From contig AP031353.1 in NCBI GenBank assembly GCA_037833965.1, positions 2,668,501 through 2,732,500 on the forward strand: a stretch of DNA of 64,000 nt, read 5' to 3'. The position numbers and the translations under genes were made by a program. The DNA is from Marchantia polymorpha subsp. ruderalis (taxonomy: Eukaryota > Streptophyta > Marchantiopsida > Marchantiales > Marchantiaceae). The notes below the pieces were generated by a model. It was not told where the DNA came from, did not search any database, and was given only the letters and a program-made list of their open reading frames with translations. Of this stretch, positions 16,081-35,529 are shown piece after piece. Each line of letters opens with the position of its first letter. The stretch's first letter is position 1.

Positions 16081-18778
16081 ATGAACAAAGTTCTAAACTT
16101 TCATGAGTCTATGAAACTTTCGGGCGTGACAATTATCTCAATTGGACTATCCGACTCCAAACGATTCTTTGCACCAAAGATTGATGATTTGAGATCATCC
16201 ATCAACTTGATTTTGTTGTTATCACTGAGTACAATCCAAATCTTGCAACTATATCGCTCATTGACACAATAACCCTTTGGCATCATCGACTTTGTCACCT
16301 GAATTTCCAGACAGCACACCACATGTCGTCCAAATGTCTTGTGAAAGTTTTGCCTTACTTATCATCAGGTCGTGAACATAAGTGCATCACCTGTGTTTTG
16401 TCTAAGCAACACTACGTTCACAAGAGTAAGAAGCCTGCCAAGCGAAGTACTCATCTTCTGGAGCTTATCCATACCGACATCTGTGGTCCAGTTGTAGCAA
16501 GAACCTAATTTAAGTATATGATGACTTTTATCGATGACTATTCATGGTATACATGAACCTACTTACTTTGAATTAAGAGTGCTACTTTCGATTGTTTTAA
16601 AAAGTTTGTCACTTTAGTCAAAAACTTGTTTCCACATAAAGTAGCTGCCATCAATACTTGGCAGAATGACTTGGACTTCAAAATCTCAAGCATGTGTTCG
16701 GACAGATGATTAGAATATTTGTTTCAGTACTTCAAAACCTATTGTCTTTAGAAAGGCATACAACGCCAACTCACCATTGCTCAAAATCCGCATCAAAATG
16801 GAGTTTCAAAGCGCAAAAACTGTACGCTGATTGAAGTTGCGCAATGTCTGTTTACTTCTCAAAAGTTTTCCGTACAAATTTGGATTGAGTGCACGCAAGC
16901 TGCAAATTTTATGCTCAAGCGGTGTGTCATTCGAGCATTGAACTTGACAACTCCGTTTGAGAAGTTATTCGACATTTCTATAGACTTATCTCGTCTTCGT
17001 GTGATTGGTAGTATGACATACTTCCACATCTCAATAGAACAGCTCACTAAATTACAAGTGAAGTATTTTCGCGTTGTTTTGTTGGGGTATGATGAGCAGT
17101 CACAAGCTTATCGATGTTGGGATCCGCATAACAAGCGCATAGTTGTATCCGCATATGTTATTGTATTTGAATCTATCATAGGTGATTTTTGGTTGGATCA
17201 ATCATTTGTGGATATTTTTTCCTACCTTCTCGATGACGATCCTCGCTTCCTACTCCGTCACCGATAGAACAGAATAACTTTCATCAATCTGATTTCACGG
17301 CTCCCTCGAATATTCACCAACCAGATCTACTTCAACCTCAAGCATTGCCTACGACTTCTCCTACGAGGTCTAACATTGCTCCAATTTTCACAGTCTCAAA
17401 CATTACTAACCCAACTACAAAATTCATCAAAGATGCGACGTTTACATGCTCGTTATGACGATTATTCATCTCTGCACCTCACCAACTCAATGCTTTTAAG
17501 ATGATCCACCCAAATTATTGATCAGATTTCATTCCACCAAGCATAGCTTCAATCCAGACCGGTGGAAAGCAATGCAGGAAGAATTCGATGCTCTTATTAC
17601 GAATCTCACTTGGGAACTTGTTGAACTTCCTCGAGGTTAAAAGACACTAACTTCACATTAGATCTACAAAGCAAAACAGGAGTTGATTCTTACACACATT
17701 TGTCTGAAATCTAGGCTTGTTGCTTGTAGCTTGGAGCATACGTATGGAGTGGATTACAAGTAGACATTTGATCCTGTGGTCCGGTAGTCTACTCTTTGAG
17801 CAATGATAACACTATCTGTGACTCTTGGTTGGACTTTGCATCATATGGATGTTATCACTGTTTTTCTGAATGAAAAGCTACAAGAACATATCTACATGCA
17901 TCAGCCTCCAGGCTTTGAAGAACTAGGAAAGGAGCACTTGATGTGTCTAAAGAAAAGTTCTTTATCAGACTCAAATCTCCTCGTCAGTGGTTAGAGGAGA
18001 TTGACACATACCTTCGTTCCAACAAATGGACCATAAGTTAGCTAGATCCTAACTTATACTTTTTACATGCACATAAAACTGTTGCTGTACTTTTACTCTA
18101 CGTCGATGTCATGCTAATTATTGGTAATAATTATTCTTGTGTCGTTAAGATCAAATCTCAACTTAGCTTACCTTATAAGATGAAAAATTTAAGTAGAGTC
18201 TCTTGATATCTTGGAGTGTTCATCGTGCATACCACTACTAGTGGAAGTTTTATGCATCAAACCAACTACATCACGGACTTACTCAAAGAGTGCATCTCGG
18301 ACACATCCCTCATTGAATCAGTTGCGCTTCCGGCTGAACTGATTCTCGAGGCAGATACAAATACGCCATACTTTGATAGTTCAAAATATTGTCACCTCGT
18401 CGGTAAGCTCATCTTCCTCTATCACAATTGTTTTGATAATTTGTCTCTTGTTGGACTTCTTAGTCAGTTTATGCATAAACCGCAAATGGCCATTAGACTG
18501 CAGTTCAACCTCTCCTCGGATATCTCAATGACATTCTGAACTATGGTTTACTTTACCAAAAGGGAAAAGCGCATATTCAAGACTATACTGACGCAGATTA
18601 CCTTAGTTCTACAAACACTCTTTGATTTGTTGGAGCTTATATTTTTAAGCTTTCAAGCGGACCTGTATCTTGGTCGTTCAAGCAACAGCCCACAGTTTAT
18701 GATAGCACAACTGAAGCTGAATACAAGGCCTTATCAAAAGGGGACAAAGAGGTTGTGTGTCTCAAGAGGTTAATGGCT
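16081..18778 (+). pseudogene. Copia gag remnant and pol (integrase, RT, RNase H start), degenerate
   Basis: A short gag-like start (16081, MNKVLNFHESMKLSG) is followed by the pre-integrase zinc region (CITCVLSKQH) and LELIHTDICGP near 16400-16490. The integrase core follows (FIDDYS, then NGVSKRKN), then RT from about 17550 (RWKAMQEEFDAL, HHMDVITVFLNEKL, HQPPGFE). The RT catalytic motif reads YVDV (18099-18110) instead of YVDD, losing one catalytic Asp. RNase H starts near 18570 (TDADY) and includes TEAEYKAL. It breaks off after RLMA at 18778, where the LINE begins. Stops occur throughout. The span between the 5' LTR and integrase is only about 0.4 kb, so most of gag and protease has been deleted. 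Confidence 0.88.
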
Positions 18779-18780
18779 GG

Positions 18781-19240
18781 AGTGTAAACAGGAGCTGAGA
18801 TTTGGTGGGCTTGTTCACGACGGCCGGGCGCACATACCTGCAAATTTTCAGCCACAACGGAGCTGCTGTCAAGAAGTTGTCATTTCGAAACTTTGAGTTT
18901 AGGGGTTTGAGCATGAATCTTGCGGGGGCCATATCTTCTTGCTTGAGTGTCAACAGGAGCTGAAATTTCCTGGGCTTGTTCACGACGGCTGGGCGCACAT
19001 ACTTGCAAATTTTCAGCCTCAACGGAGCTGCTGTCAAGAAGTTGTCATTTCGAAACTTTGAGTTTAGGGGTTTGAGCATGAATCTTGCGGGGGCCATATC
19101 TTCTTGTTGGAGTGTTAACAGGAGCTGAGATTTGGTGGGCTTGTTCACGACGGCCGGACGCACCTACCGGCAAATTTTCAGCCTCAACGGAGCTGCTTTC
19201 AATAAGTTTTCATTTCAAAACTTTGAGTTTGTGTAACATC
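18781..19240 (+). repeat. LINE 5' region: 165-bp tandem monomers, about 2.8 copies
   Basis: Monomers start at 18781, 18946 and 19111, each with AGTGT(A/C/T)AACAGGAGCTGA. The first two are 165 bp and the third, about 130 bp, runs into the ORF1 leader. Each contains GGGCTTGTTCACGACGGC and CGGAGCTGCT, and the first two end GGGGGCCATATCTTCTTG. Because 165 is a multiple of 3, a long minus-strand open frame is produced; I regard it as spurious. Placement before ORF1 suggests an internal promoter array, as in rodent L1, which is inference. Confidence 0.9.
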
Positions 19241-19259
19241 TTGCAAAGTTGGGTTCATG

Positions 19260-19994
19260 ATGGATTCTGAAAACAAACTTCTCAATCTTGTGCAAACGGT
19301 TTTGGAGGAATTGAAAGTGCTACGCCAAGAATTCAAGGCACAAAATGTTGCCTTGGCTGCTGCAAAGAATGAAATCCGGGAGTTGAAGATTTCTCACAAA
19401 AGTTTTGAGAAGATCATGTTCCAAATCTCTGGGTTTGTTGAGGACATTCAAGACAAGGTTGGTTCTCAAGCTTCTACTGTTACTACTCCTACTTTGCATG
19501 AAATGGTTGAAACTCTTGGGGTGAAAATGAAGTCCTATGCTGAAGCTACCAAGTCTGCTCATATCTCTTTCTATCAAGAGCAAGAGATTGAAAAGGCTAA
19601 TCAATTTGCTCGTATGAAGAATGTGAGGATTTCGGGTCTACTTGAATCTGAGAAGGAAGAGGTGAAGAGTGTGGTCACCAAGTTCTTGACTGAAACACTT
19701 GATGTTCCTAATCCGGAGTTGGCTCATGCTTACCGTATTGGCAACAAAGACGCACAACCTCGTGCCATTATTGTTAAGTTTGTGGATCAAGCTCAACGTG
19801 ATATGGCTTTAGCTAACAAGGCCATTCTCAAGGGACGGAGAATTTGGTTAGATCCAAATCTTACACCTCTTCAAGTTGAAGCAAGGAGGAAGGAGCTTGC
19901 AAAAGTCAAAGAAGCTCAAGATGCAGGTCTTGTAGCTTATCTACGTGATAGTCAAACTATTATCACCAAGAGGAGGAGACAATCATCAATCTAG
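19260..19994 (+). CDS. LINE ORF1 protein (RNA-binding chaperone type)
   Basis: The intact 244-residue frame starts at 19260 (MDSENKLL; an alternative ATG is one codon upstream). Residues about 1-60 are heptad-like and charged, predicting a coiled coil for trimerisation. Residues about 115-195 match the L1 ORF1p RNA-recognition region: MKNVRISGL, then LAHAYRIG and RAIIVKFVD. The C-terminal domain follows (IWLDPNLTPLQVEARR). No CCHC zinc knuckle is present, unlike most plant L1 ORF1 proteins. In the family ORF1p coats LINE RNA and helps reverse transcription. It is the only uninterrupted reading frame of the element and ends 24 nt before the ORF2 ATG. Confidence 0.87.
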   Translation: MDSENKLLNLVQTVLEELKVLRQEFKAQNVALAAAKNEIRELKISHKSFEKIMFQISGFVEDIQDKVGSQASTVTTPTLHEMVETLGVKMKSYAEATKSAHISFYQEQEIEKANQFARMKNVRISGLLESEKEEVKSVVTKFLTETLDVPNPELAHAYRIGNKDAQPRAIIVKFVDQAQRDMALANKAILKGRRIWLDPNLTPLQVEARRKELAKVKEAQDAGLVAYLRDSQTIITKRRRQSSI

Positions 19995-20018: not shown

Positions 20019-23000
20019 ATGTGGAACATAAGAGGCCTATCTACAACTAAGTATGTGAATGCACATCCAATTTGGAAGATGGCGGACATCCTCAACATTG
20101 TTAAGACTTGGGAGCATGAAAGTAATGTTATTGGAGAGATACAAGGGTTTACTCTAGTGGGATCTACTTGGAACCATAGAAATCGACGAGCATGAAGAGG
20201 CTTTGGAGGCATTGCTACTTTCATCAGATCTGAACTTCTTCCTATGATACATTTGGAAAGCCAAGATATTGGGAAACAATATCATTGGCTTCGTCTCGGA
20301 TTGATTGAAGGATCTTATAGTTATTTGGCAATTTGTTACTTTGCACCATTATCCATGCAAATCTACTCGACAAGCACTTGCAATCGAAGTCAACTATTCC
20401 ATCGGCTCATAGGAGATGTTTTCAAATATCAAGACAAAGGTGAAGTTTTTCTTGTTGGTGACTTCAATGCCCACATACGTTCCGCTCAATTTACACAATT
20501 TGATAGTTCCTTGTCTTCTCACTCTTTTGAAGAAAGTAGAGATAGTTTGTGGTCTAGAGTCTCTTGTGATCCTTGTACAAATGATTTGACTGAGCATTTC
20601 TTGACTTTTGGAGCCACTTGTAATCTGAAAGTTCTCAATGGTGTTTCTTTCTTTCCCAACTCTCACTCCAATACATGTTTTTCCTCTACTGGTGTTAGCA
20701 CTATAGATTATCTTTTGTCCTCTGCCACTAATAGTTCATTTATCTCAGCGTTTGATTTTCTAGAGCCTCAATCAGAATCAGATCATACACCTCTTTTATT
20801 TACTCTTTTGTTGTCAACGTCAATCCCTCTCCCTACATGTCACTATGTTTCTACTTCCCCCAAGTTTTGTTTAGATGCTAGTAAGAAGCAACTTTAAAGT
20901 GAACATTTCTAAGACCTCTTGACTTGTACTACTTGGAGCCTTGATCCACATACATCTAGTTTGCAACTAACAAAGTTGCTCCAAAACTCTGCTTCTAAGT
21001 TCTTTTTGAGACATAAGACCAGGAGAGCTAGAGGTCTTCCTTGCAATGGATGGTTTGACTTTGATTGCAAGCAAGCGAGGGCGAGATCACTTGATAAATC
21101 CTTGGATCTTCACAATCGGTTGATTATGACAAGACTTTACAAAGACTTGATGAAGTCCAAGAAACAAGCATTTTTGAGGCAGAAGCAAGAGTGCTTGACA
21201 AAGGAGCTCTTGGAGAATCCCAAATCCTTTTGGAGGCGGTTGGCAGTACGATCTTCTAAACCTACTATTGATCCCAAGTCTTTGATTTCTTTTGCTGAAG
21301 AGCTTTATTTCTTTCCCAATGTTGCATCTATGTCACATGAAGGAAATCCAGGCTTATTTTCAGAAGTTGAAGTGATGACTCAACTCAAACAATTGGCAAA
21401 TGGTAAATGTGAGGATTTGGATGGGCTTTCCATTGAACTTCTCAAGTGGGGAGGAGATGTTATTGGGCCTATACTCACGAAAGTGTTAGAGGATGCTACT
21501 ATTCATGGCTTTCCTTCATCTTGGTCTCTACGGAAGATTCTTCCTATTCACAAATCTGGATGCAAGGCCTTGGTGACAAATTATCGCACTATCATGGTGG
21601 GTAGTATTTTTGCCAAGTTATTTGGCAAATTGGTGGAGTCAAAGTTGAGTACATGGGCTGAATCTTGTCAGAAGAGAGCTCGGTTCCAAGCTGGTTTTCG
21701 TCCTACATTCAACACTATAGATCATATCTTGGTTTTACGTGTTCTATGGGAGAAATCCAAGGGTAATGGAAAAGCTTTGTTTTGTGCCTTCATTGATTTC
21801 AAGAAAGCTTTTGACACAGTACCTCGTGAGCTTTTATGGCAAAGATTGCAAACCATTGGAGTACCATCAGATCTCTTAGCAGCGGTGGTTATATTATACC
21901 ACTCAGTTCGGGCCAAGATCAACACTGCTCAAACCGAAGAGATTATCAACACCATTGGAGTCATTCAAGGTTGTCCTCTCTCTCCTACTCTCTTTGGAGT
22001 TTTCATAGATGATATAGAAAGGTGGTTGGAGGATTGTGATAGCAAAGGTGTTAAACTTGGAGGCTTTGTCATCAAAGCTCTTTTGTATGCAGATGATGTC
22101 ATATTACTAGCACGTGATGCCACTAGTTTACAAAAACACCTTGATTCTTTGACTAGCTTTTGTACTCAAAATCAGATGGAAGTCAATTTGGAGAAGTCCA
22201 AAGTCATTCTTGTGGGCACTATATCCAAGCTCTCTTTCTGTTACAAAGGATTAGAGTTGGAACAAGTGAAAAGTTACAAATATTTGGGCATTGATTTCTC
22301 TTCTGATTATAGTTGGGCACTTTGTGTGCAAAAGAGGGTAGAAGCTGGTTTCAAAGCTCTATATTCATTGCTAAATTGATGTAGAGGAGCTCATCTACTG
22401 TCTTGGAGTCTTAGGAAATTCTTATTCATGAGCTTAGTGTTTCCCGTTATCTTATATGGAACACAAGTGTGGGGTCCTGGTTGTAAGAAGACAGGTTGGC
22501 AGCGTTTGGAGAGGGTGCAAAAGATCTTCTTACAAGAAGAATTGGGTGTGAGGACCCAAACTTCTTATGCAATTCTTCTTGCGGAAACAGGTTGTCTACC
22601 TCTTGAGGCTGAAGCTATCTTTTTGACTATCACTCATGTCAAAAGAGTGAGATCTCTTGATGCTTCTCGACTTCCTCTTGAAGCTTTGCGTGCCACACGT
22701 CCCAATGGTTGGTTTGCAGATGTGATGACTTGGTCTTTGAGGTGGAATGTGACGGAACTCGATTGGAATTTGCAACCTATTGCCCTACGCGAGCGTATTA
22801 AGGAGGAATTTCTCAGCATTATGTGGAGCAGACGAGGCACCAAGATGCAGTTTTATCAACTTCATGTGAATCCTATGCTTATTTATTGTGAGCAAGGGTA
22901 CCTTGTTGCAGAGATCGCTACATCTTTACGTCATATTATTGCCAGACATAGAACAGGATCTAATAGGCTTGGAATTGAGGAAGTACGTTGGTTGAATATT

Positions 23001-23216
23001 GATAGGAGTGAACGGATTTGAGGGCTATGTGATGGGAGAAATGTTGAGGATGAAGAGCATGTGTTTATTACTTGTACTAGATATATAGAGATTCGAGTGG
23101 CGCATAAAGTTGATGTCGAGAATTTCTTTTCTTTGCTTCAACTCGAGCCTTATGATTTAGATTGTTACATTAGAGATATTATTAGTTACCGTTCTAGTGC
23201 TTTGGGCACTAGCTAG
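20019..23216 (+). pseudogene. LINE ORF2: APE endonuclease, reverse transcriptase, C-terminal Cys/His region; five nonsense codons
   Basis: One continuous frame of 1,066 codons starts at 20019 (MWNIRGL). The APE-like endonuclease occupies about 20019-20800, with VGDFNAH, STIDYLL and SDHTPLLF. The RT spans about 21380-22350, with QAGFRPTFNT, FIDFKKAFDTVP, GVIQGCPLSP and an intact catalytic YADD in LLYADDVILLA. A thumb/connection region and a C-terminal Cys/His motif (LCDGRNVEDEEHVFITC, about 23025-23080) follow. In-frame stops lie at 20193 (TGA), 20895 (TAA), 20910 (TAA), 22377 (TGA) and 23019 (TGA), with no frameshift. Each stop is one C-to-T change from CGA or CAA. In the family this protein nicks the target and primes cDNA synthesis. 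Here it can no longer be made in full. Confidence 0.9.
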
Positions 23217-23331
23217 AGGGTTCTTTTGGTTCTCTCCTAGTTTGGAGTTGGATTGTTTGTATTGTGTTTTTTAGCCTTTTGACCCTTTGGATCCCACGGG
23301 CTTGATCTATTTACCATTTACCATAATATAA
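23217..23331 (+). other. LINE 3' UTR and tail
   Basis: About 115 bp from the ORF2 stop to the junction with copia at 23332. It ends in short ATTTACC-like repeats and a brief A/T tail rather than poly(A). The segment 23206-23320 has a close second copy at 34245-34359, fused to U6. The RT of this family presumably recognises this 3' end, an inference from how LINEs work. Confidence 0.85.
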
Positions 23332-31702: not shown

Positions 31703-34141
31703 GTTAACAAACACGTTGAAACCGACATATAAAGTCTGGTTCAGTAGCTAGTCTCCTTAACAGTTTTCAAAATTCGCTTTTTATCAGCATCAAGGTCCCG
31801 GCCAATTTGGCTATAATTTTTTTTAATCAATGTCATCCCTTGCCATTGAGGCCCAGTGCTTGGTCATGCTATGAACGGGCTCTTGCAGGGAGTGCCTTCT
31901 GGCGACTGATACAGATTGAGGAATGGTTCTGCACAAATCAATTCGTAATGTGGTACATGAGGCCTAGATTGAGTATAGTTGAGAGAGGGACCGTGTGTAT
32001 CTATCACTCTTATTTTAAGAACCTTGTAATGAATGCTTCTGGCAAGCAGTCAGCACACAGATGTTGTTCGTTGTCATGAGGGCTGTCTCTAAGAATCAGC
32101 TCATCACTTCTGTGGTCCTATTTCCAGGTCGTCGGTTGCATGCATTTCAAGGGGAAGGAAAGGAAGGATGGGAGAAGACGATCGTAGTTTGTAACTAGGT
32201 CAACAGATTTCTATTTGTTTGTATTTTCTCTATTCCAGGGTCTATGTACTTGTTTTACACATGCTAGAATGTGAGTTGGTTGTCCACAGCGTTGTCAGTT
32301 GGAGTGGGGTATCAGTATCCCTCCAAATGAAGAGATCTTGCGGAGTCGGCTGCTCGCGAACTAGATTAAGGATGTCATGTGATGAGCTTAGTTGGACGGG
32401 TTCATCAGGCATCCAGCTTTCTCATTTCATTGATAGGTCAGCGAAGGAACATCGAGCATTATGATGGTTCGAACTCATCATAATAGTGAACGCGAACGTG
32501 AGCATCTGCAGTTGAAATGCCGGACGTAGAAGAAAGCTTGTTCTATATTTCTGAGTCATGTAGCTCAACAGTTATTATTATTAAAAAGGACCAATTAGCT
32601 CGAAAACAGTACTGTCTATATTATTTTGTAGTGACGGGGTCCACTTCCGATGAACTGAGCCGACGACGCCACCTCTTGTCACTTAAGTTTTTTGAGCAAT
32701 CCTGAGTAAACGGGGTGCAGTGAGGATATCTCCCCTGTCTGTGTCGGCTATATCGAAACTGCACTATCTAACCAAGAGATGAAAAACAAGGTATCGTATA
32801 TAATGTCCTTGTGTTGCGTAAATCTCTCAAACAAATATACTCGTCCAGTGCAGACCATGTCAGTTTGCTCTTCCACAGTCGAAAATATCTTACCAACAGC
32901 GAAAGGAAATACCTCAATGTGTACCGCTCCAACCAAAAGTTCGATCCGAAGCAACTCTGATTGAGACGAAAATGTAACAGTAATGAAAACGTGTAATCAG
33001 GAAGGTTCATAGACACACTTATAAACTTTCTTTATAGATTATCTCTCTAATGTAATTAATTCATTTCCTGTTGTTAAAAGCTATTGTTTACGCTTCAAAA
33101 ATATTACACTGTAGATATGTCAAAATCATCTACAAGAATAGAGTGTGTTATAAGTGAACAATATTCCAAAGCATTGAAGTGAGGTAAAAGTTAGAATATT
33201 AATTAATCATTCGATGTATAAAATAAATTGAAAACGTCCACCTTGAAACAAATATGTAACGTAACCAACACAAACTTTAATTTTTGAAACATTAAATTTT
33301 GCGTCAATTAACTGGATCGAAATATTTTATCTTATATTAACCGATTAAATGGTAAGTTGAATGCTTCTATATGAAAATTTATTTATGAAGAAAAGTACTT
33401 GTGCTAATCATCGTCAATTAGATATGAATACTATATATACATCATATACAAAGAGATTTAGATCATCAGACTTAAATCATTAAAAATTTAGATATCCCAG
33501 ATCTTTAGGATGTCTAAAACTCAACATAGGTTGAAGCAAATCTTGGTTAAGTAGAACTAGGTTACTATTGTACAATTGTACTTGAAAATGCTACACTTGA
33601 CATAATATTGAAGGAGTGATTGTTCAGATTTGGCGTGACAAGGTGAGAATCTTCAAATATAAGGTTATGGTGAAAAGAGTAGCAATTCTGGCACACCATA
33701 CTAGATGAAGTGGACATCACTTTTTTAAGTTTTAGAAATGTATTGAAAATGTACATAGAGGAGTATATGCATCGTCCTATACATAAAAAATCATGTTAAA
33801 TTATGCTTAATTGGATGTTCTAAGTAGTAAGTAGATCCTAGTATATCTTAGTTGCAATGTGACATAATTTACATTTCCATCGTCACCTTGTTGCGGGCCA
33901 GCCCCGTCCTTACCATTGATTTCAACCTTGTAAGATATGATGGGCTTATACTCTCCTTTTTTATAAATCCCTCTCCTTTAATCTTGCATCTTATTATCTT
34001 CGTCTACTCGAATATCAATAAGTATCTTGGTTCCGAAAAATGTTCTATGGACCCACGCAATTATCTTTCATCGATCATCAAAATGAGGAGAGATTTCTAT
34101 TTCTAACTCAAGCGAATGAGTCGTCATGTAATTTCATCATT
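31703..34141. other. Intergenic, AT-rich towards the right
   Basis: No gene is supported. The first few hundred bases are probably the bL19 3' UTR and downstream DNA. It includes the second arm of the dispersed inverted repeat (32805-33323). The 270 bp before the U6 copy has no upstream sequence element or TATA at the spacing required for a plant U6 promoter. Confidence 0.5.
32805..33323 (-). repeat. Dispersed repeat copy, inverted relative to 25156-25615
   Basis: The reverse complement aligns with 25156-25615. The two arms lie in opposite orientation about 7.2 kb apart and flank the bL19 gene. Apparent open frames in it are not conserved between the arms. Confidence 0.75.
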
Positions 34142-34243
34142 ATCCCTTCGGGGACATCCGATAAAATTGGAAAGATACAGAGAAGATTAGCATGGCCCCT
34201 GCGCAAGGATGACACGCACAAATCGAAAAATGGTCCAAATTTT
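34142..34243 (+). ncRNA. U6: U6 snRNA retro-pseudogene (5' part of a U6-LINE chimera)
   Basis: A near-complete U6 copy of about 102 nt runs from the 5' stem-loop (TCCCTTCGGGGACATCCG) through ACAGAGA, AGC and the 3' end CCAAATTTT. Compared with the usual plant U6 I see three changes: the first G is A, GGAACGATAC reads GGAAAGATAC, and CGAGAAATGG reads CGAAAAATGG. The splicing-critical ACAGAGA and AGC are intact. No USE (TCCCACATCG-like) or TATA box precedes it at the required spacing, and the 3' T-run is directly followed by LINE sequence. It is therefore a reverse-transcribed copy, not a working U6 gene. Homology tools would call it U6 and could mislabel it functional. Confidence 0.93.
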
Positions 34244-34244
34244 C

Positions 34245-34359
34245 GCACTAGCTAGGGGATTCTTTTGGTTCTCTCCTAATTTGGAGTTGGATTGTTTGTA
34301 TTGTATTTTTTAGCCTTTTGACCCTTTGGGTCCCACGGGCTTGATCTATTTACCATTTA
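34245..34359 (+). mobile_element. LINE 3' end fused to U6 (3' part of the chimera)
   Basis: These 115 bp match 23206-23320 of the nested LINE with only a few substitutions: the last ORF2 codons (ACTAGCTAG), then the whole 3' UTR to TTTACCATTTA. They start one base after the U6 3' end, in the same orientation. Because the piece ends where the LINE's own 3' UTR ends, the insertion was primed at a LINE 3' end and then switched onto U6 RNA. I see no clear target-site duplication. Confidence 0.93.
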
Positions 34360-35529
34360 ATTGTTTTTTCAAGATGATGCCTGGACCGAGAACACGATGA
34401 AGATAAACCTTCAATTAGAGAAACGTGGAGGCGGAGTAAACCGCGGGATCGATGGGCAAAATCGGTCCCTTGATTCATCCAACAGACTTAGTCCCGAAAG
34501 CTGACAGACCTCTGGACAAAGGGGTCATGAAACATAACTCCCAAAACGGGCGGGCAGATCTCGTCACATGGAACCGGCTCAGGGTGCCTGCTCAGGGTCG
34601 AGGCACGCAACGTGAGCCTTCCGATGCCGGCCACCGGAAACAGTCACGGGACGCAAGAGCAAATCTCACCGGCTAAAAGGGAGGTCGAAATCTTCAGATC
34701 CGATGCGAACGATTCCCTCCACCCATCGCCACCGGCCTGACCTGCCCCGGCAGCGAAATTAAGAGTCACTATCCAGCCAGACGACCACTATTCTTCCAAA
34801 GCCATCGAGCCCGGAAAGGACCCGCGACCGCCGGCGGGCGTGCAGAACCCGATCTGAATCCGAAGACGAGAGCTTCCGGGGACACGCCGCTCGGTCGCCG
34901 GGGGCGCGCGCCTTCGATCCTATCCGAACGTCCGAGCGCAGGAGCGGCCGGCCCGACGGCGTCACCGTGACGCCGTCTCAAGAGGCGCAGCTCATCTCGA
35001 GCGGGGCGTGGGGTCATTTGTTGTCGTCGGCCGAAAATGGGGTGTTGAGAAATTTGCGGGCGTTTTTCGGGCGATTTGTCGTGGCGCGAGATGACAGTCG
35101 GAGCGCGAGGGGCCCCGTCGTCGCGTGCTGGCGTGGGGGCCGTGGCTCGCTCGCTCGCAGGTCCGACCTCGATCTTGTCGTGCCGCTTCGTCTCGGCGTC
35201 GAGCTCGTCAGCTTGATCTGGGAATGCTGTTGTGGATGGCCGAATCGAATCTGCGCCGCTGGTCGGGCGCTCGACGAGCAGATGTATATTCTGCCGAAAG
35301 CCTCACTGAGAGCGGAGCCGAGCAGAGCAGAGCCGAACAGAACGAAGGCAAGTGGAGCGGAGCGGAATTGAGCTGATTGGGGTTTGGAAGCGGATTTGGT
35401 GTGGATTGCGTTTACGACATTTTTTGGAGGAGTGGAGGTGTGGAAAGTGGAAGATTGGAAGATTGGAAGAGGAGAGGGAGGATTTTTGCATGAGACGTTC
35501 TTTTGGGGCGGACGGTGGGAAATTTTGCG
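34360..35529. other. Upstream region of the PIRL gene, GC-rich
   Basis: From about 34.8 kb the composition shifts to GC-rich. Purine-rich GAGC/GAGCAGA repeats near 35310-35375 and GGAAGATTGGAAGA repeats near 35450-35480 precede the start codon and are probably promoter or 5' UTR. The long open frames on both strands are composition-driven. No other gene is supported. Confidence 0.45.

Follow-up and report, generated by a model that had tools for sequence, protein, structure and literature searches.

A U6 snRNA-LINE chimera in Marchantia polymorpha and recurrent inverted extensions at the 5' ends of U6 retrocopies

The window analysed here, a stretch of 64,000 nucleotides from Marchantia polymorpha subsp. 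ruderalis, contains a block (positions 34142 to 34359) that is best read as a chimera of U6 snRNA and a LINE 3' end formed in one event. The main pattern in the genome, absent from the sequence-only reading that had singled out this block, consists of tailless 3'-truncated U6 copies together with a probable 5' snap-back, and the recurrence of the latter is the most interesting feature and was unexpected. It is very probable that a LINE retrotransposition chimera, starts of reverse transcription inside U6 and 5' snap-back together give the right account of these loci.

Results

The U6 retrocopy occupies positions 34142 to 34244 of the + strand, where cmscan places Rfam family RF00026 (U6) with 102 bits and an E value of 2.3e-25, the sole Rfam match over the gathering score in the window. 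Alignment with the genomic U6 gene covers U6 nucleotides 2 to 102, the initial G being missing, with 99 identities in 101 (two substitutions). A single unmatched base (C) separates this part from a LINE 3'-end segment (34245 to 34359) joined to the U6 3' end, which aligns over 115 bp with positions 23206 to 23320 of the window at 95.65% identity; both parts lie on the + strand and have the same orientation. The covariance-model search and the alignment thus agree with the sequence-only reading, in which a near-complete U6 meets a 115-bp LINE segment of the same orientation at a distance of no more than one base: its observation was real, its coordinates, orientation and junction were correct and its interpretation was right in kind, although overstated in detail. 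The target-site duplication is ambiguous and can be read as 0 to 3 bp, the possible 3-bp copies (TTA) lying at 34140 to 34142 on the left and at 34357 to 34359 on the right, both on the + strand. In a genome search with both flanks joined, the left and right flanks overlapped by 2 nt, and neither a second copy of the flanks nor a paralogous empty site was found. Comparison of the flanks by eye found no TATA box at the usual distance from the window U6, unlike in U6 genes; the TATA box and upstream element of the gene-like loci, which would mark a functional U6 gene, are both lacking.

The LINE of the window lies entirely on the + strand. Tandem 165-bp units (2.8 copies, 18776 to 19230), which form more extended arrays in L052 and other cluster loci, stand upstream of its open frames. 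These comprise a first frame of 245 amino acids (19257 to 19994; no Pfam match at 0.001), an endonuclease part (20244 to 20897; Exo_endo_phos_2 / Exo_endo_phos), a reverse transcriptase part (20919 to 22379; RVT_1) and the C-terminal frame of this interrupted copy (22428 to 23021; no Pfam match at 0.001). The 3' end homologous to the chimera tail (23206 to 23320) finishes in TTTACC repeats. Among the matches listed, the named relatives of the reverse transcriptase come from liverworts, a fern and Taxus, the closest named being Marchantia polymorpha, and the relatives of solved structure are R2-type and L1 proteins. The places of the LINE tail (the first 100 of 394 listed) include, among the matches listed, clusters at 3.31-3.52 Mb of C1, 14.12-14.37 Mb of C2 and 14.91-15.09 Mb of C3, with further LINE-dense stretches near 20.0 Mb of C4, 12.0 Mb of C7 and 10.4-10.7 Mb of C9. 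On each chromosome seen the LINE copies gather in a dense cluster, nested in one another and perhaps centromeric; a centromeric LINE has been reported in poplar, in the part of PMC11288735 available to us.

A genome search with window positions 34100 to 34400 listed 47 matches, with 40 of 1502 first-look candidates scored. Among the matches listed, the window's own place alone spans both the U6 and the LINE parts, and the remaining 46 start no earlier than query nucleotide 137, which places them in the LINE tail or no more than 9 bases ahead of it. LINE tails elsewhere match the chimera tail at up to 98%, again among the matches listed, and one LINE copy (L004, on C6) has in common with it the GGGGATTC variant, which the window LINE does not carry. 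Because other copies match better and one of them shares this diagnostic variant, the window LINE is ruled out as the donor that it had been taken to be.

The recurrence of the chimera was examined with a U6 core pattern that, at up to 3 mismatches, gave 101 matches genome-wide, 100 of which were listed and read. Eighteen loci were gene-like (TATA box, full 3' end and shared gene flanks) and 6 duplicate rows were dropped, which leaves 76 distinct retrocopies, the gene-like class and the duplicate rows having been assigned partly by eye. Three events among the 76 are U6-LINE chimeras: the window (L033), L021/L022 on C3 and L137/L150 on C9. L021 and L022 appear to be duplicates of one event; in both, the final 25 nt of the LINE come directly after U6 at an exact junction, and the unit interrupts another LINE, a single host copy, at LINE positions 21182|21179, with a target duplication of 3-5 bp. 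In L137, which has its duplicate (L150) 41 kb away, U6 precedes about 435 nt of 73%-identical LINE that reaches the LINE 3' end, the homology being certain from 33 nt past the U6 end, since the first 33 nt align poorly and are not confidently LINE. There is no clear target duplication, and this event is older than the other two. In all three the LINE part reaches the LINE 3' end from a different start point, U6 is sense to the LINE, and the U6 3' end is complete, at nucleotide 102 in the window, 103 in L021 and 102 in L137. To catch 5'-truncated chimeras as well, the U6 3' end was searched for with up to 3 mismatches allowed; this gave 40 places, five of them new and fetched (one being L150), and no additional chimera event. 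Hence the expectation of recurrent U6 junctions at varying LINE positions is borne out by the window, C3 and C9, but not in the large number foreseen, with three events against 899 LINE 3' ends found genome-wide at up to 1 mismatch. The proposal that this plant LINE shares the U6 association is upheld by the same recurrence at different LINE positions. An exact U6 3' half (nucleotides 58-103) was also seen at L146 (C4:26624060-26624420); a U1 match, at C4:26624368, lies some 160 bases downstream of it.

A U6-headed SINE was considered and rejected, as amplification was not seen: instead of many copies of one composite, the C3 and C9 pairs each resemble one duplicated event, and no second copy of the window composite appeared among the matches listed in the window-query search or in the 100 U6 loci read.

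Most U6 retrocopies have no LINE tail and are 3'-truncated. Fifty-six of the 73 non-chimeric copies end at nucleotides 79-99, with 22 at 89-91 and 17 at 96-99, whereas 5 end before nucleotide 79, 2 at nucleotide 100 and 10 at nucleotide 101 or later; all three chimeras, in contrast, end at 102-103. The pattern fits starts inside U6 at short target matches, as in the mammalian 3'-truncated class described in the available part of PMC4476161. Eight of the 100 U6 loci (6 distinct events) sit in LINE clusters, which together occupy 0.46% of the genome under bounds chosen after the clusters had been seen. Within the seven loci of U6 inserted in a LINE, short target duplications were read in L021 (given above) and L071 (2-3 bp), L034 has none with a 1-bp loss, L076 is ambiguous, and L030, L028 and L110 show no readable duplication. 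LINE-in-LINE insertions, picked by eye, numbered 11 (14 candidate junctions minus 2 without coordinates and minus L052, which is not a simple insertion), and their target overlap is 0-9 bp, being 2-4 bp in 7 of the 11. The sequences would tie the U6 copies, short of proof, to the window-type LINE or a close relative. Where the active LINEs recognise their 3' ends specifically, Doucet et al. (PMC4476161, in the part available) detected no 3'-truncated copies of U6; some of the tailless copies in Marchantia may therefore derive from another LINE. Genome searches with U1, U2 and U5 gave at least 41, 36 and 44 matches (42, 46 and 47 candidates scored, which puts the counts close to the scoring cap), with genes and retrocopies unsorted, and by eye none of the 121 listed places falls inside the LINE cluster bounds. 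A good dozen weak U2 matches, all 122-123 bases long among the matches listed, hint at a repeated U2-derived family.

The 5' ends of the retrocopies carry a distinct signature. Among the 46 that begin at U6 nucleotide 4 or before, or that have the extension itself, 14 have in front of them U6 sequence from nucleotide 15 on, copied exactly in inverted form over 7-33 nt; the remaining 32 have only 0-3 matching bases, and none of the 18 gene-like loci has more than one. The 14 copies share one register on the U6 5' stem, and in one of them (L027) the hairpin loop is inverted too. At up to 3 mismatches the extension signature gave 26 matches genome-wide at 25 places, one palindrome being counted on both strands, and the reversed control pattern gave 0 at the same tolerance; eight further copies found in this way were read (L140-L145, L151 and L152). 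Exact inverted U6 pieces of at least 8 nt within 45 nt upstream precede 21 of the 76 retrocopies, against 3.8 expected from shuffles, although some of the 21 lie away from the U6 start and may be due to chance, and one of the 18 gene-like loci (L122) has such a piece too. Three U6 copies without the 5' hairpin (L134, L086 and L098) are nevertheless preceded by inverted U6 pieces, and fold-back may consequently occur at other points as well. The C3 chimera has a 33-nt exact inverted extension at its U6 5' end. Upstream of it lies a further short inverted U6 piece, TCGGATGTC, which suggests a second fold or jump within the same event.

The U6 5' end, GTCCCTTCGGGGAC, forms a hairpin, which allows the end of the cDNA to fold, serve as its own primer and be lengthened, and the inverted extensions are best explained by such snap-back self-priming. 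In the literature searched, which left most subscription journals outside, no report of a snap-back or self-primed inverted 5' extension of U6 was found.

Discussion

The block at 34142 to 34359 would be the outcome of a single retrotransposition by a LINE that ends in TTTACC repeats. Its endonuclease would nick the target and reverse transcription would begin at the 3' end of the LINE RNA; after 115 nt the reverse transcriptase would move on to U6 RNA, entering at the 3' end either through a template switch or because both RNAs were already ligated, and would then copy U6 as far as the 5' terminus. This machinery, or that of a close relative, may also start within U6 where the nicked target offers short matches, producing the tailless 3'-truncated copies. 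Finally, the cDNA terminus GTCCCCGAAGGGAC could fold back, prime itself and add the inverted copy from U6 nucleotide 15 on. From the products we infer the enzyme as well as the steps of switching and folding.

How U6 and LINE came to be joined admits other accounts. In one, which is a sub-case of the account just given, an RNA ligase would join the U6 3' end to a LINE RNA fragment before retrotransposition. The complete U6 3' end of all three chimeras is what ligation would require, while the plant tRNA ligase is unlike the animal enzyme, which counts against this order of events, and we hold it to be possible but rather doubtful. For mammalian U6/LINE-1 the available part of PMC13174262 names RNA ligation alongside template switching and leaves both possible. 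As ligation leaves the same product, template switching as such, which the sequence-only reading had asserted, does not follow from the anatomy. Two separate insertions, with the LINE tail arriving first and U6 landing directly upstream or in the reverse order, would be helped by the abundance of LINE tails and by the fact that U6 copies do insert into LINEs. However, the window junction is precise to one base and that of C3 is exact, all three chimeras present the U6 3' end to the LINE in sense orientation, which makes coincidence unlikely, and the C3 block, with only one short duplication, lies inside a single host LINE; successive insertions are accordingly very improbable. Least credible of all, to the point of being nearly dismissed, is a segmental duplication or a recombined U6 gene in place of retrotransposition. 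The C3 and C9 pairs do each resemble copies of one event, but the flanks of the window chimera were found only at the window, which disfavours segmental duplication as the source of its junction, and the LINE part stops at the LINE terminus. A U6 gene lying by chance beside a truncated LINE is likewise disfavoured, as no gene-type promoter is seen by eye and the C3 unit is a single block in an otherwise continuous LINE.

A different alternative concerns only the 5' step and is irrelevant to the chimera itself. The host could have repaired a broken cDNA end by fold-back synthesis, with no participation of the reverse transcriptase. In the available part of PMC11724301, inverted duplications at yeast breaks are mostly 5-34 bp long and arise by fold-back with Pol delta, a range close to the 7-33 nt seen here; the constant register on the U6 5' stem in the 14 copies would be possible for either polymerase. 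We regard host repair as a real, though less than even, possibility for this step. A bolder proposal, which we put forward as speculative and rather unlikely, is that LINE reverse transcriptases favour U6 as a partner because its 5' hairpin provides the cDNA with a self-primer, so that the finished cDNA would acquire a double-stranded end of 7-33 nt that aids second-strand synthesis or joining to the target. If this were true, Marchantia would preserve the fold-back step in the form of the inverted 5' extensions, including that of the chimera L021/L022.

The U6-LINE association is hereby extended from vertebrates to a land plant, and to a LINE that carries a short repeat, not poly(A), as its tail; this suggests an association that is either old or readily formed. 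Moreover, the inverted 5' extensions preserve in the genome a trace of the way in which a LINE-type cDNA may terminate, a step about which little is known in target-primed reverse transcription, and Marchantia would be a tractable model for both matters. No earlier plant U6/LINE chimera was found in the literature searched, most subscription journals being outside it.

Relation to known systems

In vertebrates, U6/LINE chimeras have been described with L1, L2 and RTE elements (PMC4476161, available part). The mammalian U6/L1 chimeras resemble those of Marchantia, according to the available parts of PMC4476161 and PMC13174262, in that a full-length U6 stands on the 5' side, in sense, joined to a 5'-truncated LINE 3' end. 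They differ in the LINE tail, which in Marchantia consists of TTTACC repeats and not of poly(A), in the LINE target overlaps of 0-9 bp and in the 5' inverted extension of one chimera. The mammalian tailless 3'-truncated snRNA retropseudogenes, in the same part of PMC4476161, are like the Marchantia copies in being truncated in single-stranded purine-rich stretches, most often at nucleotides 89-91 in Marchantia; inverted 5' extensions, present in Marchantia, were not found described for them in that part of the paper. Outside vertebrates, the chimeric retropseudogenes of Magnaporthe (PMC2104539, available part) are likewise LINE-linked chimeras of cellular RNAs, but in a fungus. The platypus U6-L2 chimeras, as far as the available part of PMC4476161 describes them, share with Marchantia a simple-repeat tail other than poly(A), a short LINE segment and small duplications (1-9 bp in platypus). 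Nevertheless, the platypus U6 parts are nearly all 5'-truncated, whereas the three chimeras of Marchantia reach U6 nucleotide 1 or 2, and the tailless truncated U6 copies, undetected in platypus according to that part of the paper, are abundant in Marchantia.
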